64,000 nucleotides of DNA. Origin: Nevskia sp. (GTDB taxonomy: Bacteria; Pseudomonadota; Gammaproteobacteria; Nevskiales; Nevskiaceae). Made by a program: the position numbers and the translations under genes. The notes under the pieces were generated by a model. The model was given only the letters and a program-made list of their open reading frames with translations. It was not told the origin of the DNA and made no database searches. The stretch is from positions 310,001 through 374,000 of the forward strand of contig NZ_JAKFUM010000007.1 in assembly GCF_021732705.1 (NCBI RefSeq), in the 5' to 3' direction. How positions within the stretch are numbered: the first letter of the stretch is position 1; every line of letters starts with the position of its first letter. Positions 10,330 to 29,461 of the stretch are shown in pieces.

Positions 10330-11688
10330 TTGGCTGACAAGAGCGGAGGCCGCGTGCTCGTCGTCGATGACGAAGCCGCGCTGCTGAAGACGTTTCGCTA
10401 CTGCCTCGAGGACGACGGCCACACCGTGGCCACGGCCGCGAGCGGCGAACAGGCGATGGCGCTGATCCACAGTCGCGTGTTCGATGTCTGCTTTCTCGAC
10501 CTGAGCCTTGGCGACACCAATGCGCTGGCGCTGCTGCCGGCGATCAAGACCGCGGCACCGTGGCTGCGCGTGGTCATCGTCACCGCGCATTCGTCGGTCG
10601 ATACCGCGGTGCAGGCGATGCGGCTGGGTGCGATGGATTACCTCGTGAAGCCGTGCTCGCCGGAGCAGCTGCGCATTGCCGCCGCCACCCATCTGCACGC
10701 GCGCCGGCTGGACCTGCGGCTGGAAGAACTGGAGCGCGAGCAGGGCCGGCCCGCCGGCGATGCCCAGCTGGTGAGCCTGGCGCCGGCGATGGCCGCCTTG
10801 CTCGATACTGCGAAGCAAGTCGCTGAAAGCGAAGCGAATATTCTGGTGTTGGGCGAAAGCGGTACCGGCAAGGGCGTGATCGCCAAGGCCATCCACCGCT
10901 GGAGTGCGCGACACGCCGCGCCGTTCGTGACCATCAACAGCCCGGGCCTGTCGGGGGAGCTGTTCGAAAGCGAGCTGTTCGGCCACCGCAAAGGCGCGTT
11001 CACCGGTGCCGTGGCCAACTCGCCGGGCCGGGTGTCGCAGGCCGATGGCGGCACGCTGTTTCTCGACGAAATCGGCGAAGTGCCGATCGGCCTGCAGGCG
11101 AAGCTGCTGCGCTTCCTGCAGGACAAGGCCTACGAAAGCGTCGGCGATCCGGTCACCCGTCAGGCCGATGTGCGGCTGGTGGCCGCGACCAACCGCGACC
11201 TGAACGCGATGGTCCGCGCCGGCACGTTCCGCGAAGACCTGCTGTACCGGCTCGATGTCATCCGCATCCACCTGCCGCCGCTGCGCGAGCGGATCGAGGA
11301 TCTGCCGCAGCTGGCCGCCGGCTTCCTCGACGAATTCATCCGCATCCACCGCGGCCGCGCGCGCGGCTTCAGCGACGACGCCCTCGCGGCACTGGGCCGC
11401 CACCGCTGGCCGGGGAACATTCGCGAGCTGCGCAATGTCATTGAGCGCGCGAGCATTTTGTGTCGCGGCGAGCTGATCGAACCGCGCGATCTCGCGCTGG
11501 GTGAAGCGGGTGCCGGACCTGCCGGCACTGCGTCACGGCAGACCGGCAGCGGCCTGAGCCTGCAGGCACTGGAACGCGAACATATCCTGACCGTGCTCGG
11601 CGAAGCCGAAACGCTGGAAGCGGCGGCCAAGCAGCTCGGCATCGACGCCTCGACGCTTTATCGCAAGCGCAAGCAGTACGGCATCTGA
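10330..11688 (+). CDS. algB: AlgB-type sigma-54-dependent response regulator
   Basis: About 452 residues. Receiver domain with acidic pair Asp13-Asp14, phospho-acceptor Asp57 (CFLDLSLGD) and the switch Lys in YLVKPCSP. AAA+ domain with Walker A GESGTGKG, the sigma-54 loop GAFTGA at 222-227 and Walker B TLFLDEIGE. The C-terminal Fis-type HTH ends LGIDASTLYRKRKQYGI, which like FRYCLEDDGHTVATA strongly recalls AlgB of Pseudomonas, the regulator that works with KinB in alginate and virulence control. The start is a TTG at 10330: it has GGAGG 8 bases upstream and the product begins right before GRVLVVDDE. The KinB-like kinase gene follows 100 bp later, beyond a terminator-like hairpin. Confidence 0.9.
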   Translation: MADKSGGRVLVVDDEAALLKTFRYCLEDDGHTVATAASGEQAMALIHSRVFDVCFLDLSLGDTNALALLPAIKTAAPWLRVVIVTAHSSVDTAVQAMRLGAMDYLVKPCSPEQLRIAAATHLHARRLDLRLEELEREQGRPAGDAQLVSLAPAMAALLDTAKQVAESEANILVLGESGTGKGVIAKAIHRWSARHAAPFVTINSPGLSGELFESELFGHRKGAFTGAVANSPGRVSQADGGTLFLDEIGEVPIGLQAKLLRFLQDKAYESVGDPVTRQADVRLVAATNRDLNAMVRAGTFREDLLYRLDVIRIHLPPLRERIEDLPQLAAGFLDEFIRIHRGRARGFSDDALAALGRHRWPGNIRELRNVIERASILCRGELIEPRDLALGEAGAGPAGTASRQTGSGLSLQALEREHILTVLGEAETLEAAAKQLGIDASTLYRKRKQYGI

Positions 11689-23364: not shown

Positions 23365-23914
23365 GTTGAACAGTCCAGGGTCAGGGAAATCGGGGCCGGC
23401 TCGCCTCGTCCGACGACGGCCGGCATCTCGTGGTCGGCACGCTGCCGCACCGAATGATGCCATCCGGATGGTGACGGGCCGTGACCTGCGACGAACGCCC
23501 GAGCCGCAGCGGGCACCAACCCGACACCGTGATCATCTGGCGCCAGCGACCGCCGGCCGGACGCCGATCGATCCGGAGGCGCAGCGGGGACAACCTGCAG
23601 GCATCGCTAGATTATTGAGCTTGATCACAATTTTTGCGGCCGACGGGCGTTATCATCGGACGCGCACGGCGCAGGGAAGTCCCGGAGTCAGCGGTCGTCG
23701 CGGCTGCTGGAATCCACATGGACGCGCGTCGACGAACGTCGACATCGCATCGATGGCGGAGCCGCACAGCGACAGCATTGACGACGCGTTGGCGGGGATG
23801 AATCGCCGATCAGCGCGGATGTACACTCGTACCGGCAATTTTCAGGGATTTGTGAGCAGGGGACCTTGGCGACGGCGGCCGGGGCATCCCGGATACATCG
23901 ACGAGGATCGCGCA
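23365..23914. other. 550-bp gap between divergent genes
   Basis: No gene is supported. It must carry promoters for the thioesterase gene and the propeller-cyclase gene. An AT-richer patch at about 23610-23640 includes TTGATCACAA, half of a CRP/FNR-like site, but the second half is poor. Confidence 0.5.
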
Positions 23915-26900
23915 TTGAGCTATCGCGGAACGACATCCGGTGCGTCAGCATCGTCGTCGCCGCGCGTCTGCGTGCTCTCGCTGTGGGCGCTGCTGGTGGC
24001 GTTCGCCGCGGTCTTCGCTCGCCCCGCCGCCGCGCTGTCTGCCGACAAGTCGTTCCACAACTTCGTCCGCGACTCCTGGTCGATCGAGCAAGGCCTGCCG
24101 CAGATCGCAGTGCAGGCCATCGCGCAGGATCACGAGGGCTACATCTGGGCCGGCACCCTGAGCGGCCTCGCCCGCTTCGACGGCGTGCGCTTCACCACGT
24201 TCAATCCGGCAATACGCCGGCGCTGCCGAGCAGCACGATCCAGGCGCTGCACACGGACCGCGACGGGCGGCTGTGGATCGCGACGAACAAGGGTGTCGCC
24301 GTCTACCGCGATGGTCGCTTCGTCACCGTGCCGGTCGAGAATCCGGTGGCCAGTGCCGAAATGGACGTGCAGGACATCCTGCCGAGCGCCAGCGGCGAGG
24401 TGCTGGTGGCGACCACGGCCGGCCTGTTCCGGGTGGTCAATGACAAGCTGCAGCAGGACCGTGCCGTGCCGGGGCCGCTGTTCTCGATCATCGAATCCGG
24501 CCAGGACAACCGCTGGATCGGCGGCTGGGGCGGCGTCTACCAGCAGCATGGCAACACCTTCGCGTTCGAGATGCTGCCGGGCCTGAGCCTGCACGACACG
24601 GTGCAGCATCTGGTGATTTCCGGATCGCGGCTGTGGGCAGGCACCAGCACCGGCCTGTTCGTGCGCGAGGGCGGCGTCTGGCAGCGCTACGACCGCCTGC
24701 CGACGCTGGCCTCGTCATCGATCGGCGTGCTGTACGAAGACCGCAGCGGCAATCTGTGGGTCGGCACGTCCAGCGGGCTCGTGCGCATGCGCAACGGCGA
24801 GCTGGTGGAACAGATCGACAACGAGCGCATGGGCACGCGCTGGGAGTACCTGACGGCGTTCGAGGATCGCGAGAACAACCTCTGGCTCGGCAGCCGCACC
24901 CGCGGCCTGACCCGGTTCTGGAACGGCCTGACCACGCGCTACAGCCTGCAGGAAGGGCTGAGTTCGCCGCTGGTCTGGTCGGTGGAGCGCGACAGCTTGA
25001 ACCGGGGCGACAGCCGGCTCTGGGTCGGCACCGACAACGGCCTGAGCGAGCTATCGGGCAACCGTTTCCGGCAGGTGCTGCCGGGCAGCGCCCTGCCCGA
25101 TCCCAGCGTCTACAGCCTGCTGGTCGAAGGCGATGACATCTGGATCGGCACCTCGCATGGTGCCGTGCTGATGCGGCGCGGCGAACTGGTGGCCTTGTCG
25201 GCGTTGAAAGGGCTCGAAGGTCTGCGCATCAACGGCATCCTGCGCGATCGCGCCCGGCGCCTATGGTTCGCGACCTCGAACGGCCTGTTCCGCTACGCCG
25301 GCGGCGCACTGACCCGCTTCGGCGAGAACGAGGGCCTGAGCGACCCGAGCGTCCGGGTGCTGTACCAGACCCGCGATGGCCGACTGCTGCTCGGCACGCA
25401 GTTCGGGCTGGCCGAGTGGCTCAATGGCGAGGTTCAGGCGATCGGCGCTGGCGAAGGCCTGCCGAACGACATCGACGTCACCGCCATCCACGAACTGCCG
25501 GATCGCCGGCTCGTCGTCGGCACCGCCACCGAGCAGCTGTATGTCTACGAGGGCAGCCGCTGGATCGAGTTCAACCACGACCATGGCCTGCCGCAGAACT
25601 CGGCGTTCTTCATCACCAACGACGACAAGGGCTATCTCTGGGTAGCCGGGCTGCGCGGGCTGTACCGGGTTCCGGTCGACGACCTGCGTCTGCCCAAGGA
25701 CGGTGTCCGCCGCCCGGTGCGCAGCGAGCCGTACGGCAACGAGCTGAGCGCGCGCACCACCGGGCCGCGCGGCGAGTGCTGCAACGGTGCGGGCAACAGC
25801 AAGGGGCTGATGGCCGGCGGCGTGCTGTGGCTGCCGACACGCGATGGCGTGCTGTCCGTGCCGACCGACACGCTGGTGCGCAATCCGGTGCCGCCGACGG
25901 TCAAGGTCGAAAGCGTGTCCACCGGCGGCAAGTGGATCAGCGCCAGCGCCTTTCTGGCAGCACCGCTGCCGGCTCGGGCGCGCGACCTGAGCTTCAAGTT
26001 CTCGGCGCTGAGCTACCAGGACCCGTATGCGGTGCAGCTCGAATATCGCCTGCGGGGTTACGACGAGAACTGGCAGCCGGTGAAGGATTCGCTGAGCCGC
26101 TACGCCGACTACACCAATCTGCCACCCGGCGAGTACGTGTTCGAGGTCCGTGGCGCCAACAATGCCGGGGTCTGGAGCGAAACGCCGGCGATGCTGGCGT
26201 TCCGGATCACACCGTTCTTCTACGAGACCATCTGGTTCTACCTGATGATCGCGGTGATCGTCCTGACGCTGGCGTACGGCATCCACCGCTGGCGGCTCGG
26301 TTCGCTGACCCGGCGGCGCGCCGTGCTCGAAACGATCGTCGCGCAGCGTACCGACGCGCTGGCGCTGGCCAACCAGCAGCTCGAGCAGGCCAGCTATACC
26401 GACCCGCTGACCGGCCTGCGCAATCGCCGATACCTGCTGAACCAGTTGCCGCAGGACCTGGCGTTCTACCGGCGCAAGGGCGTCGAGTGCTACGACGAGG
26501 ACACCATCCTTCTGTTCCTGCTGGTCGACATCGATCACTTCAAGCAGATCAACGACAGCCACGGCCATGGCGGCGGCGATCTGGTGCTGCAGCAGTTCAG
26601 TGCGCTGCTGAGCGAATTGGTGCGCGTGGGCGATTACGTGACGCGCTGGGGCGGCGAGGAATTCCTGATCGTGTCGCGGCCGCTGTCGCAGCATCATGCG
26701 ATCAGCTACGCCTCGCGCATCTGCACCGTGATTTCGGCGCATCCGTTCGCGGTCGGCGCGCCGACGCCGCTGCGGCTGACCTGCTCCGTCGGCTTCGCCG
26801 AATACCCGCTGCGCAACACGCCGCCATCGCTCGACTGGCAGGATCTGGTCGAACTCGCAGACCGCGCGCTGTACCACGTCAAGGAAACCGGCCGGAATGG

Positions 26901-27072
26901 CTGGGCTGCGTTCCGGTTCACCGCCAAGACGCCGTTCCAGACCCTGATGCGCCGGTTCAAGGACGACCGCGCCGCACTGCTGGCCGAAAACGACCTGCTG
27001 CTGATCAGCTCGCGCGACCCGCTGCCACCGGACTCGCAGGCCGTGACGCTGGAGTTCAAGGCGCGATCCTGA
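23915..27072 (+). pseudogene. Two-component-type beta-propeller diguanylate cyclase, frameshifted near 24208
   Basis: An exported or membrane sensor of about 1050 residues if repaired: signal anchor (VLSLWALLVAFAAVFA), a Reg_prop beta-propeller of about 12 repeats (FVRDSWSIEQGLPQ, then LWIATNKGV, LWAGTSTGL, LWVGTSSGL), a Y_Y_Y domain (LEYRLRGYDENWQP), a membrane helix (FYLMIAVIVLTLAYGI) and an intact GGDEF domain (YTDPLTGLRNRRYL; RWGGEEF). The first 98 codons read in one frame up to FTTFNP; the sequence then continues correctly as GNTPALPSSTIQALH only in the next frame. One missing G in the CCGG at 24206-24209 explains this. The likely start is the TTG at 23915 with GAGG eight bases upstream. 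It may be an assembly error, a slippage site or a real mutation. Confidence 0.85.
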
Positions 27073-27494: not shown

Positions 27495-27914
27495 TCACCC
27501 GGGGCGGTTGCGCATCCAGTCGGCGGTCTCGAAGAAGCTGGCCATCAGACGTTCGCGCAGCGCCGGCGGATACGGCTGACGTTCGAGCGCCTGCAGCATG
27601 CAGGTCAGCCACTGGTTGCGCTCCGCTTCGCCGATCGCGTACGGCAGGTGCCGCGCCCGCAGCCTCGGGTGACCGAATCGGCTGATGTAGTGATCCGGCC
27701 CGCCACTCCAGCCGCACAGAAACCAGAAGAACTTGTCACGCGAGCCGTTCAGCATCGGCGGATGCAGTTCGCGGACGGTCTTCGCGGACGGATCCGCGTC
27801 CATGATCGCGTAGAAGTCGTCGACCAGCGCCCGAATGCCGGGCTCGCCGCCCAACAGTTCGAACAAGGTCTCGGCCTCGCTCGCAGGATCGGAATCGGGT
27901 TTCACGTCGGTCAT
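27495..27914 (-). CDS. Group II truncated hemoglobin
   Basis: 139 residues of the 2-on-2 globin fold (YjbI/GlbO class). Seen: Tyr35 at position B10 (DDFYAIMD), the proximal His89 in RARHLPYAI, and Trp102 at position G8 (ERNQWL), the residues defining group II. It binds O2 or NO and helps detoxify nitric oxide or peroxide in related bacteria. The N-terminal 12 residues are an extra polar tail. The gene stands alone, convergent with the small membrane protein. Confidence 0.95.
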   Translation of the reverse strand: MTDVKPDSDPASEAETLFELLGGEPGIRALVDDFYAIMDADPSAKTVRELHPPMLNGSRDKFFWFLCGWSGGPDHYISRFGHPRLRARHLPYAIGEAERNQWLTCMLQALERQPYPPALRERLMASFFETADWMRNRPG

Positions 27915-28090
27915 CGGTTTGTCGGCAGGCGTTTCGGCTGCAATGATAGAGGCCTGCCGGAATCCCGCGAGCGCCGCCCAGACAGCGCCGCCAATCGGAT
28001 CGTCCGGCCTGCTCGTCAGACCGGCGCTGGCAGGCCGGTGTCCCGGAGTACGGTCGGCCCGGCAGCATCACTGACCCAGGAGAGAGAAAC

Positions 28091-29410
28091 GTGTTCGGCT
28101 CAGCCAAGAAAGCAGATTCCAGAAAGGCGCAGGACATGGCATCCCGCGAGCCTGCCGCCGACGTCCTCGTCGTGGCCCCCGAGGCCTACCTCCGCGACCG
28201 CCTGAGCGCCGAAGCGCTGCAGCTTCCGGCCGACCGCCGCGTGCAGACCGTGTCGCTGACCGATCCGCGGGCCACCGGCGGCATCGAAAGTCCTTACGTG
28301 CTGAGCCTGTTCAACAATCCGCTCGATCTCGACGCGCTGGCCGATCAGGTCGTGGCGGCCCGCGGTGCCGGACGCGAGACGGTGCTGATCGTCGCGATCA
28401 ACTCGACCCAGCTGGTTGCCCTGGGTCAGTGGCTGGAGCGCCGCGCGCCGACCGGTCGCCTGCAGGGCACGCGGCTGCTGCTGGCGTCGGATGTCGATGG
28501 CGTGGCGCAGCAGCTGATCCAGCGCCTGCGGCCGGTGACCGAAGACAACGTCATCCGGATGCCGGCGACGACGGAAGTCGACAACACGGCGTTCAAGAAC
28601 TTCTTCGTGTTCAGCCCGGAACTGCAGGCGCTGGTCGCCCGCATCCGCGGCTTCGCCCAGAACGGCGTCAGCCGCGCCTGCCTGCTCGGCGGCCCCGGCA
28701 GCGGCAAGACCACGCTGGCTTATTACTACTTCCTGGTGCGCAGCAAGGGCCGTTTCGTCTCGATCAACCTCGCTGCCGAGAACGTCGGCGACAAGGCGGC
28801 GATCAAGTCGCTGCTGTGCGGCCACGTCTCGGGTGCGTTTCCGGGTGCCGGAGCCCGCACCGGCGCCTTCCAGCACGCGCGCGATGGCGTCTGCTTCCTC
28901 GACGAAAGCCATGAAATCAGCGGTGCCGTGATGGAAGTGCTGATGGAAGCGCTCGACAACGGCCAGTACCTGCCGTACGGCGCATCGGCCAAGCAGCCGC
29001 TCGAATGCGCCGTGCTGTACGCGACCAATCGCAGCTGGACCTTCCTGCAGAACGCCGTCAATCTCGATCAGTTCACGCGGCTGGGGGCTTCGACCCTGCA
29101 GGTGCCGGAGCTGTCGCGCCGCGAGGAAGACATGATCGCCGTCGTCGCCACCTGTCTGAGCCGGCTGGCGTCGAAATGCTCGAACTGGGTGGCGCCGACC
29201 GGCCTCAGCTCCGAAGCCTGGGCCACGATCAAGGACTGCCGCTGGCACGGCAACATCCGCGGCGTGGTCCGCGTGCTCGAATCGGCGTTCGTCGATACCG
29301 CCACGACGCGCGGCGGCGACACCTTGATCCGAGCGCCGGAAATCGAGCAGGGCATCCTGCTGTGGGAGCCGAAGACCCATCACAGCCATCAGATCTATGC
29401 GGCCGCCTGA
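28091..29410 (+). CDS. Enhancer-binding-protein-like AAA+ ATPase with GAFPGA loop and no HTH
   Basis: 439 residues. Residues 20-155 form an alpha/beta domain I do not recognise (VLVVAPEAYLRDRL, VLIVAINSTQ), possibly receiver-derived but without phosphorylation residues. Residues 170-400 are an NtrC-type AAA+ domain: Walker A GPGSGKTT (201-208), a loop reading GAFPGA (248-253) where sigma-54 activators have GAFTGA, Walker B VCFLDE (267-272), sensor I ATNRSW, and sensor II GNIRGVV. The protein ends about 45 residues later with no Fis-type HTH. ATP hydrolysis is expected. Activation of sigma-54 is doubtful, because the loop threonine is critical. The GTG start at 28091 has AGGAGAGAG just upstream. 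Monocistronic, with its own terminator. Confidence 0.82.
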   Translation: MFGSAKKADSRKAQDMASREPAADVLVVAPEAYLRDRLSAEALQLPADRRVQTVSLTDPRATGGIESPYVLSLFNNPLDLDALADQVVAARGAGRETVLIVAINSTQLVALGQWLERRAPTGRLQGTRLLLASDVDGVAQQLIQRLRPVTEDNVIRMPATTEVDNTAFKNFFVFSPELQALVARIRGFAQNGVSRACLLGGPGSGKTTLAYYYFLVRSKGRFVSINLAAENVGDKAAIKSLLCGHVSGAFPGAGARTGAFQHARDGVCFLDESHEISGAVMEVLMEALDNGQYLPYGASAKQPLECAVLYATNRSWTFLQNAVNLDQFTRLGASTLQVPELSRREEDMIAVVATCLSRLASKCSNWVAPTGLSSEAWATIKDCRWHGNIRGVVRVLESAFVDTATTRGGDTLIRAPEIEQGILLWEPKTHHSHQIYAAA

Positions 29411-29433: not shown

Positions 29434-29461
29434 AGGCGCGAGCAACCCTCGCGCCTTTTTT
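29434..29461 (+). terminator. Rho-independent terminator of the AAA+ gene
   Basis: Nine-base-pair stem AGGCGCGAG/CTCGCGCCT with a CAACC loop, followed by six T. It lies 24 bp after the stop codon. Confidence 0.93.

Follow-up and report, generated by a model that had tools for sequence, protein, structure and literature searches.

The gene at 28091..29410 on the plus strand of the window (the whole stretch of 64,000 nucleotides of Nevskia sp. DNA that was analysed) encodes an AAA+ protein of a single-copy family of one bacterial order, which resembles the sigma-54 activators (bEBPs) and carries a GAFPGA L1 loop. With a probability of about one half, the protein would form a bEBP-type AAA+ ring under a pseudo-receiver, and its client would differ from the usual sigma-54 contact; this reading has been drawn from comparisons of sequences and of predicted structures.

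The gene and its flanks

The open reading frame is real: from its GTG start to its stop codon, which is included in the coordinates above, it encodes 439 residues, and in the alignment both the start position and the M-F opening of the protein are common to most orthologs. A ribosome-binding site region (AGGAGAGA, 28078..28090, plus strand) is found just 5' of the GTG, and purine-rich stretches precede the start in many orthologs too. No sigma-70 consensus promoter was found upstream of the gene. The gap between the GTG and a divergent globin-like gene (27495-27914, minus strand) is 176 bases, or 221 if one takes the start at 28136 that a simple gene caller had placed in the window. On the other side, 150 bases separate the gene from the next one (29561, plus strand), and between the two lies an intrinsic-terminator-like stem-loop followed by TTTTT (29434..29456, plus strand), with a stem of nine pairs that starts 24 bases past the stop; shuffles of the region contain on average 0.8 such sites, and the support that it gives is weak if taken alone. 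Thus, of the preliminary description, according to which the gene stands alone with its own ribosome site and terminator, the solitary position in the window and the ribosome site were found again, and the terminator is the part that stands less firmly. The upstream gap ranges in the orthologs from about 20 to several hundred bases. Co-transcription is possible in the fumarase setting described below, where simple gene calling often places both flanking genes on the strand of this gene.

A diverged AAA+ domain

The resemblance to sigma-54 activators that had been described from the sequence was borne out by a profile search, which revealed a diverged AAA+ core of the PF00158 type at residues 175-330 (28613..29080, plus strand; 7.1e-20, 71.8 bits for a cut-off of 20.2). 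Generic AAA matches of Pfam also fall in this core, and PF00158 matches all 40 aligned members of the family. It is followed by an AAA lid (AAA_lid_14, residues 343-401, 29117..29293, plus strand) with an E-value of 7.5e-5 and a score of 22.9 bits, below its cut-off of 27, which harbors the sensor II arginine R390. The Pfam scan of the window protein gave nothing at residues 1-174 or beyond residue 401. Ten ordinary activators encoded in the same genome score 212-246 bits with PF00158, versus 72 for the window protein. Its AAA+ domain is thus recognisable, yet far outside the range of ordinary activators.

The Walker A (GGPGSGKT), Walker B (DESH), sensor I (TNR) and sensor II (WHGNIR) motifs, reported earlier to be intact, are indeed present in the window protein and conserved across the family. 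In the 40 aligned members, the Walker A lysine K206, the switch asparagine N226, the Walker B pair D271 and E272, the second arginine finger R330 and the sensor II arginine R390 are invariant. The family rows were compared with 40 control activators, 10 of them from the same genome and 30 from elsewhere in the class. These 30 were the top matches of an RtcR model, and the motif patterns by which their frames were picked count the loop among their four features; they represent a yardstick rather than an unbiased survey. The arginine-finger region (29060..29080, plus strand), which corresponds to FRxDLxxRL, sets the two groups apart. While the second finger is Arg in 40/40 members and in 40/40 controls, the first is Asn (N324) in all the members and Arg in all the controls. 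Other family-specific residues are T207 after the P-loop lysine (40/40; Glu or Gly in the controls, which mostly read GKE), C243 (40/40; Phe or Leu), W316 (40/40; Leu, Val or Pro) and H274 (39/40; Gly, Ala or Thr). In PspF, the first arginine finger, R162, touches the glutamate switch of the neighbouring subunit (PMC4132715). As the equivalent of R162 is lost, the way in which a neighbouring subunit controls the loop has probably been rebuilt in this family, and hydrolysis could be weak or uncoupled because of this loss.

The L1 loop

The loop reads GAFPGA (residues 248-253, 28832..28849, plus strand), as noted at the outset, and it is conserved in the family. Counted over all 44 orthologous loci, it is GAFPGA in 39, GAFAGS in two, and GSFPGA, GAFAGA and GAFVNA in one each. 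Position 4 is therefore Pro in 40, Ala in three and Val in one, whereas the controls, whose loop was among the features by which the 30 outside ones were picked, have Thr in 39 cases and Ser in one. Two findings had been set beforehand as speaking against the preliminary description, namely homologues that all have GAFTGA and an HTH, and an obvious known family for the N-terminal domain. Neither came up: Thr or Ser is found at position 4 in 0/44 loci, and the searches described below gave no HTH and no sequence family for the N-terminal domain. The loop phenylalanine (F250) and the first glycine are invariant in 40/40 members. In the model of the protein, the loop region (residues 241-260) has low confidence, with a pLDDT of about 63.

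GAFPGA as such has already been noted in the literature. A change of T to P in the loop of NifA from B. japonicum is cited as inactivating, and DVU2960 of Desulfovibrio vulgaris is mentioned as a natural GAFPGA protein whose function was noted as unclear (PMC4641369). A survey of 2011 counted around 110 homologues with minor deviations from GAFTGA, among which Thr/Ser to Pro was preferred (PMC3162934). In a literature search that was thin on subscription papers, no whole family combining a near-fixed GAFPGA with the lack of an HTH was found in print, and none of the publications found joined Nevskia with sigma-54.

The C-terminal end

The protein ends without an HTH, as first described, and this holds for the family: at E <= 0.1, Pfam gave no HTH match in the window protein or in any of the 40 aligned members, versus HTH_8 in 10/10 ordinary activators of the same genome. 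The C-terminal end is instead a conserved tail (WEPKTHHSHQIYAAA, residues 425-439, 29363..29407, plus strand) with the pattern WEPxxHHSHxxY, in which W425, E426, P427, H433 and Y436 are invariant in 40/40 members, and H430 (39/40), H431 (36/40) and S432 (38/40) nearly so. A comparison of this tail with known motifs gave no match, and one might guess at a role in docking or metal binding.

A predicted receiver-like N-terminal domain

Residues 19-161 (28145..28573, plus strand) are predicted to form a receiver-like alpha/beta domain, to judge from models, fold matches and a residue table. The whole-protein model has a mean pLDDT of 82.8, and residues 21-160 reach 83-97 in blocks of ten; the domain modelled alone has a pLDDT of 82.9. 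In a Foldseek search with the whole protein, the first ten matches are receiver-AAA+ proteins, led by NtrC4, NtrC1, NtrX and LuxO, the superposition of the two domains on these structures being poor (rmsd 10-21); VpsR is also among the structural matches. With the N-terminal domain alone, Foldseek gave no match at E <= 0.001, the best being at 1.2e-3. In a second structural comparison, all but about eight of 50 rows are receivers or receiver-like by title, with Z values of 7.7-8.6 over 105-118 residues and rmsd values of 3.1-4.5 for the receiver rows; two designed Rossmann folds score above them, and GTPases are mixed in.

At the level of sequence, the claim that the N-terminal 150 residues match no known domain stands, as no family was found for them in Pfam, with the window protein or with the members, in NCBIfam or among PDB sequences; it is structure prediction that modifies the claim, by proposing a receiver-like fold. 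A profile of the domain had 0 matches among PDB sequences up to E 10, and PF00072 matches neither the window protein nor the 40 members. Stray Pfam matches with E-values of 0.01-0.08 (SnoaL, DUF2267 and others) occur in a few single members and are unshared by the rest. The receiver signature used for comparison consists of a phospho-acceptor after strand 3 and a lysine that ends strand 5. The former place (residue 74) is occupied by F, L, Y, H or M, with no acidic residue in 40/40 members, a proline follows three residues later in 37/40, and the end of strand 5 is without Lys in the members (residue 132). The conserved positions R91, G112, W114, R118, G126, R128, R145, N153 and R156 cluster in helix 3, helix 4, strand 5 and the linker. 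The side formed by helix 3, helix 4 and strand 5 is often used by receivers for pairing. The domain is therefore best described as a predicted receiver-like fold rather than as a proven receiver.

Distribution, selection and phylogeny

Profile searches detected the family in 52 of the 85 genomes of the order, which we take to be the Nevskiales, and in 47 of the 72 that are of good quality, with one match per genome except for a split copy in genome G004; there is no match in the remaining 33/85 (25/72). Samples of the class (369 genomes) and of the phylum (398, overlapping) were searched by scoring the four best candidates of each genome, and nothing but the source genome matched at E <= 1e-40. 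Similarly, the N-terminal profile run against 274 genomes retrieved only the source genome at E <= 0.001. A scan of 84,980 named species, each represented by one genome, used two peptide patterns, which could have missed distant members, and found 48 loci, of which 44 are orthologs (43-79% identity) and four are generic AAA+ proteins (25-28%; L089-L092) that were excluded from the ortholog count. The alignment left out five loci (L051, L066, L074, L083 and L087) that were nearly identical to others, had a cut or shifted end, or showed a broken or misparsed frame.

The hosts include Nevskia, Stenotrophobium, Solimonas, Hydrocarboniphaga, Panacagrimonas, Fontimonas, Stagnimonas, Sinimarinibacterium, Algiphilus, Salinisphaera and uncultured relatives. 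Three records titled Verrucomicrobia, Rhodospirillales and Endozoicomonas (L049, L067 and L085, respectively) also hold the gene, with 47-65% identity, and their titles may be wrong. Among viral contigs, none of 600 pattern-matching stretches encodes a relative. A plasmid search gave 1031 records at E 1e-10, every one with less than 60% identity and none with 80% query coverage.

Thirteen pairs with more than 82% identity gave dN/dS ratios of 0.02-0.31. In a tree with the 40 controls, a branch with a support of 100/100 and a stem of ~9 changes per column separates the 40 family rows from the rest; with so long a stem, only the separateness of the family is claimed from the tree, the branching order among bEBPs being untrustworthy. 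These sequence data suggest a long divergence that was followed by constraint. A few copies are broken: the split one of G004 (C93:5828-7142) contains one TAG, and that of G058 (C73:31996-33141) has one in-frame TAG. Only shortened open frames were found in Nevskia sp. HOG36 (L083) and Salinisphaera halophila (L087).

Neighbourhood and sigma-54

The names of the neighbouring genes (purB, fumC, fumA, dsbB, rraA, globin, MFS, GGDEF and GspE/PilB) were assigned by eye, with no family search. Most commonly, the gene is found near purB-, fumC-, dsbB- and rraA-like genes, each present in 18-19 of 45 neighbourhoods, and near a fumA-like gene in 15 of 45. In the window's own group, a globin-like gene flanks it on one side and, in most members, an MFS-like gene on the other. 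Neither of these two main settings hints at a partner. Near the globin-like gene, the window also encodes a long propeller-like protein with a GGDEF-like end (23866-27072, by eye), which is kept in 5/45 neighbourhoods, those of the closest relatives. No other bEBP is found within about 10 kb of the gene in 44 ortholog neighbourhoods. The nearest one in the window, an ordinary receiver-AAA+-HTH sigma-54 activator with GAFTGA (L010, about 10354-11688, plus strand), precedes the gene by 17.7 kb.

All 61 relatives tested, with or without the family, have sigma-54 (PF04552). Among the 35 relatives with the family, 11 have one RpoN match, 14 have two and 10 have three; among the 26 without it, the corresponding numbers are 12, 10 and 4. 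No association was seen between the number of matches and the presence of the family. The source genome has three, all outside the window (C1:508863, C8:184290 and C6:148669). Likewise, the family is associated neither with flagellin (42/52 genomes with the family, 25/33 without; Fisher P 0.60) nor with a GspE/PilB-like neighbour of three loci (32/52 versus 19/33, P 0.82), these co-occurrence tests being rough, with 85 genomes that are related and in part incomplete.

In the 250 bases upstream of 40 orthologs, sigma-54 promoter-like sites with scores of 8 or more out of 10 were found in 7/40 cases. The expectation is about 2 with mononucleotide shuffles and 2.7 on average with a first-order Markov model, for which 7 was reached in 3 of 300 simulations. 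This excess indicates a possible link of the gene to sigma-54. No case is built on the sites, as they are scattered (-28 to -179) and one ortholog (L061), almost identical to another (L063), is without one.

Possible functions

Modulation of ordinary sigma-54 activators, either in mixed rings with a canonical bEBP or by sitting on it, in a FleT-like or dominant negative manner, appears rather unlikely. It has precedents, as FleT of Cereibacter sphaeroides has no DNA-binding domain, is inactive alone and forms hetero-oligomers with FleQ (PMC11999139), and mixed PspF subunits including T86A were insufficient for activation (PMC4132715); besides, sigma-54 is found in all 35 sampled relatives that carry the family. 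It is opposed by a subunit interface that differs through the loss of the first arginine finger, by the length of the stem that separates the family from ordinary bEBPs, and by neighbourhoods with no bEBP nearby, the single one in the window being distant. The flagellar setting of FleQ and FleT is unmatched as well, as the distribution of flagellin shows. If the protein were an inhibitor of sigma-54 activators, it would be a naturally occurring counterpart of the PspF T86A subunit. Alternatively, it could be a true sigma-54 activator that works from solution, like the HTH-less group 5 proteins FlgR and CtcC, with region I of sigma-54, or one RpoN copy, adapted to the proline. A receiver-like domain followed by AAA+ with no HTH is indeed the architecture of group 5 (PMC7175178), the other loop residues are kept, and many relatives have two or three RpoN matches. 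We nevertheless hold this to be unlikely, as the T to P change is cited as inactivating in NifA (PMC4641369), the proline is not required, since Ala and Val occur, an extra RpoN is unneeded, judging from the relatives that have the family and a single match, and the phospho-acceptor is absent.

A role as a transcription regulator acting with sigma-70 RNA polymerase, of the kind that TyrR, DhaR and HupR play once GAFTGA has been lost, is improbable for the protein. Regulators of this type bind DNA through an HTH, for which there is no match in 40/40 members. The idea draws on the relatives of bEBPs with defective GAFTGA motifs, which include sigma-70-dependent regulators and, among about 110 cases, show a preference for Thr/Ser to Pro (PMC3162934), and on the presence of VpsR among the structural matches. 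Decay of a sigma-54 activator on its way to loss, which the broken copies in G004 and G058 and the 33/85 genomes of the order (25/72 of good quality) with no family match might evoke, is very improbable: the catalytic residues, and parts of the tail as well, do not vary even in members that share as little as 43% identity with the window protein. On the grounds of this conservation and of dN/dS values of 0.02-0.31, the proposal of a decayed copy was rejected for the whole family.

The preferred reading remains that of a bEBP-type ring with a changed client. The family would descend from, or share an ancestor with, sigma-54 activators, and have been repurposed. Its members would assemble into a ring that uses ATP and its aromatic L1 loops to pull on or remodel a protein client that is not a sigma-54 promoter complex; the pseudo-receiver might control assembly by binding a partner or a ligand, and the HHSH tail might dock the client or the partner. 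The broader proposal, that a bEBP-type lineage left transcription and gave rise to an order-specific remodelling ATPase, with its GAFPGA tip on a new client, control by a pseudo-receiver and a His-rich docking tail, is put forward more tentatively. Restriction to one order, loops with neither Thr nor Ser at position 4, the absence of an HTH, fixed ATPase residues, low dN/dS ratios and a separate branch all argue for repurposing, as do the lack of a bEBP within about 10 kb and the inactivation of NifA attributed to T to P; the excess of sigma-54-like sites, the low confidence of the L1 model and the lost first arginine finger count against it. The repurposed remodelling ATPase suggested in the preliminary description would fit these findings, to which the loss of one of the two arginine fingers has to be added.

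A changed client looks odd in that the rest of the L1 motif is kept, including the Phe essential for sigma-54 activation. Independence from sigma-54 cannot be deduced from the distribution of the family, because all 61 relatives have sigma-54. The roles of modulator and of odd group 5 activator keep some probability because the loop is otherwise intact and sigma-54 always present. Proteins related to sigma-54 activators but devoid of GAFTGA are usually classed as defective or as sigma-70 regulators. Here, selection has kept a family across an order with its ATPase site intact, without an HTH and with Pro almost always in place of Thr, and nature thereby provides a test of what L1 can do apart from engaging sigma-54. 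It also serves as a warning, as PF00158 alone would yield the annotation "sigma-54-dependent regulator".

Comparison with known systems

In NCBIfam and PADLOC, the AAA+ domain scores highest with RtcR (CARF-AAA-HTH), the N-terminal part of which is of similar length. The NCBIfam match reaches 101 of 650 bits over residues 174-397, far below the cut-off, and the matches of the RtcR-type profiles of PADLOC cover residues 150-404, 171-412 and 176-393 only. Kinship with RtcR and its CARF domain was rejected, as the same PADLOC model gives ordinary bEBPs about 380-400 bits versus 118 here and the N-terminal domain falls outside the match; the C-terminal HTH of RtcR is also absent from the family.

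With the homologues that have a defective GAFTGA (TyrR, DhaR, HupR, VpsR and YplP), the family shares the loss of the loop residue for sigma-54 (PMC3162934), and DVU2960 has the same GAFPGA (PMC4641369), a likeness that is based on the description of its loop. Unlike these regulators, the family has no HTH match, and the loop change runs through all of it. FleT of Cereibacter (Rhodobacter) sphaeroides is similarly a bEBP-like AAA+ protein without a DNA-binding domain (PMC11999139). It is described as also lacking a regulatory domain (PMC7175178), whereas the family studied here has a predicted pseudo-receiver, and it acts in the flagellar FleQ complex, whereas the family is not associated with flagellin.

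With the group 5 bEBPs FlgR and CtcC, the family has in common a central AAA+ domain, the lack of a C-terminal HTH and, by prediction, an N-terminal domain of receiver type, as judged from the published architecture of group 5 (PMC7175178). The family is restricted to one order and has no association with flagellin. It also differs from group 5 by the missing phospho-acceptor, the Pro, Ala or Val in the loop, the lost first arginine finger, the GKT P-loop and the WEPxxHHSHxxY tail.
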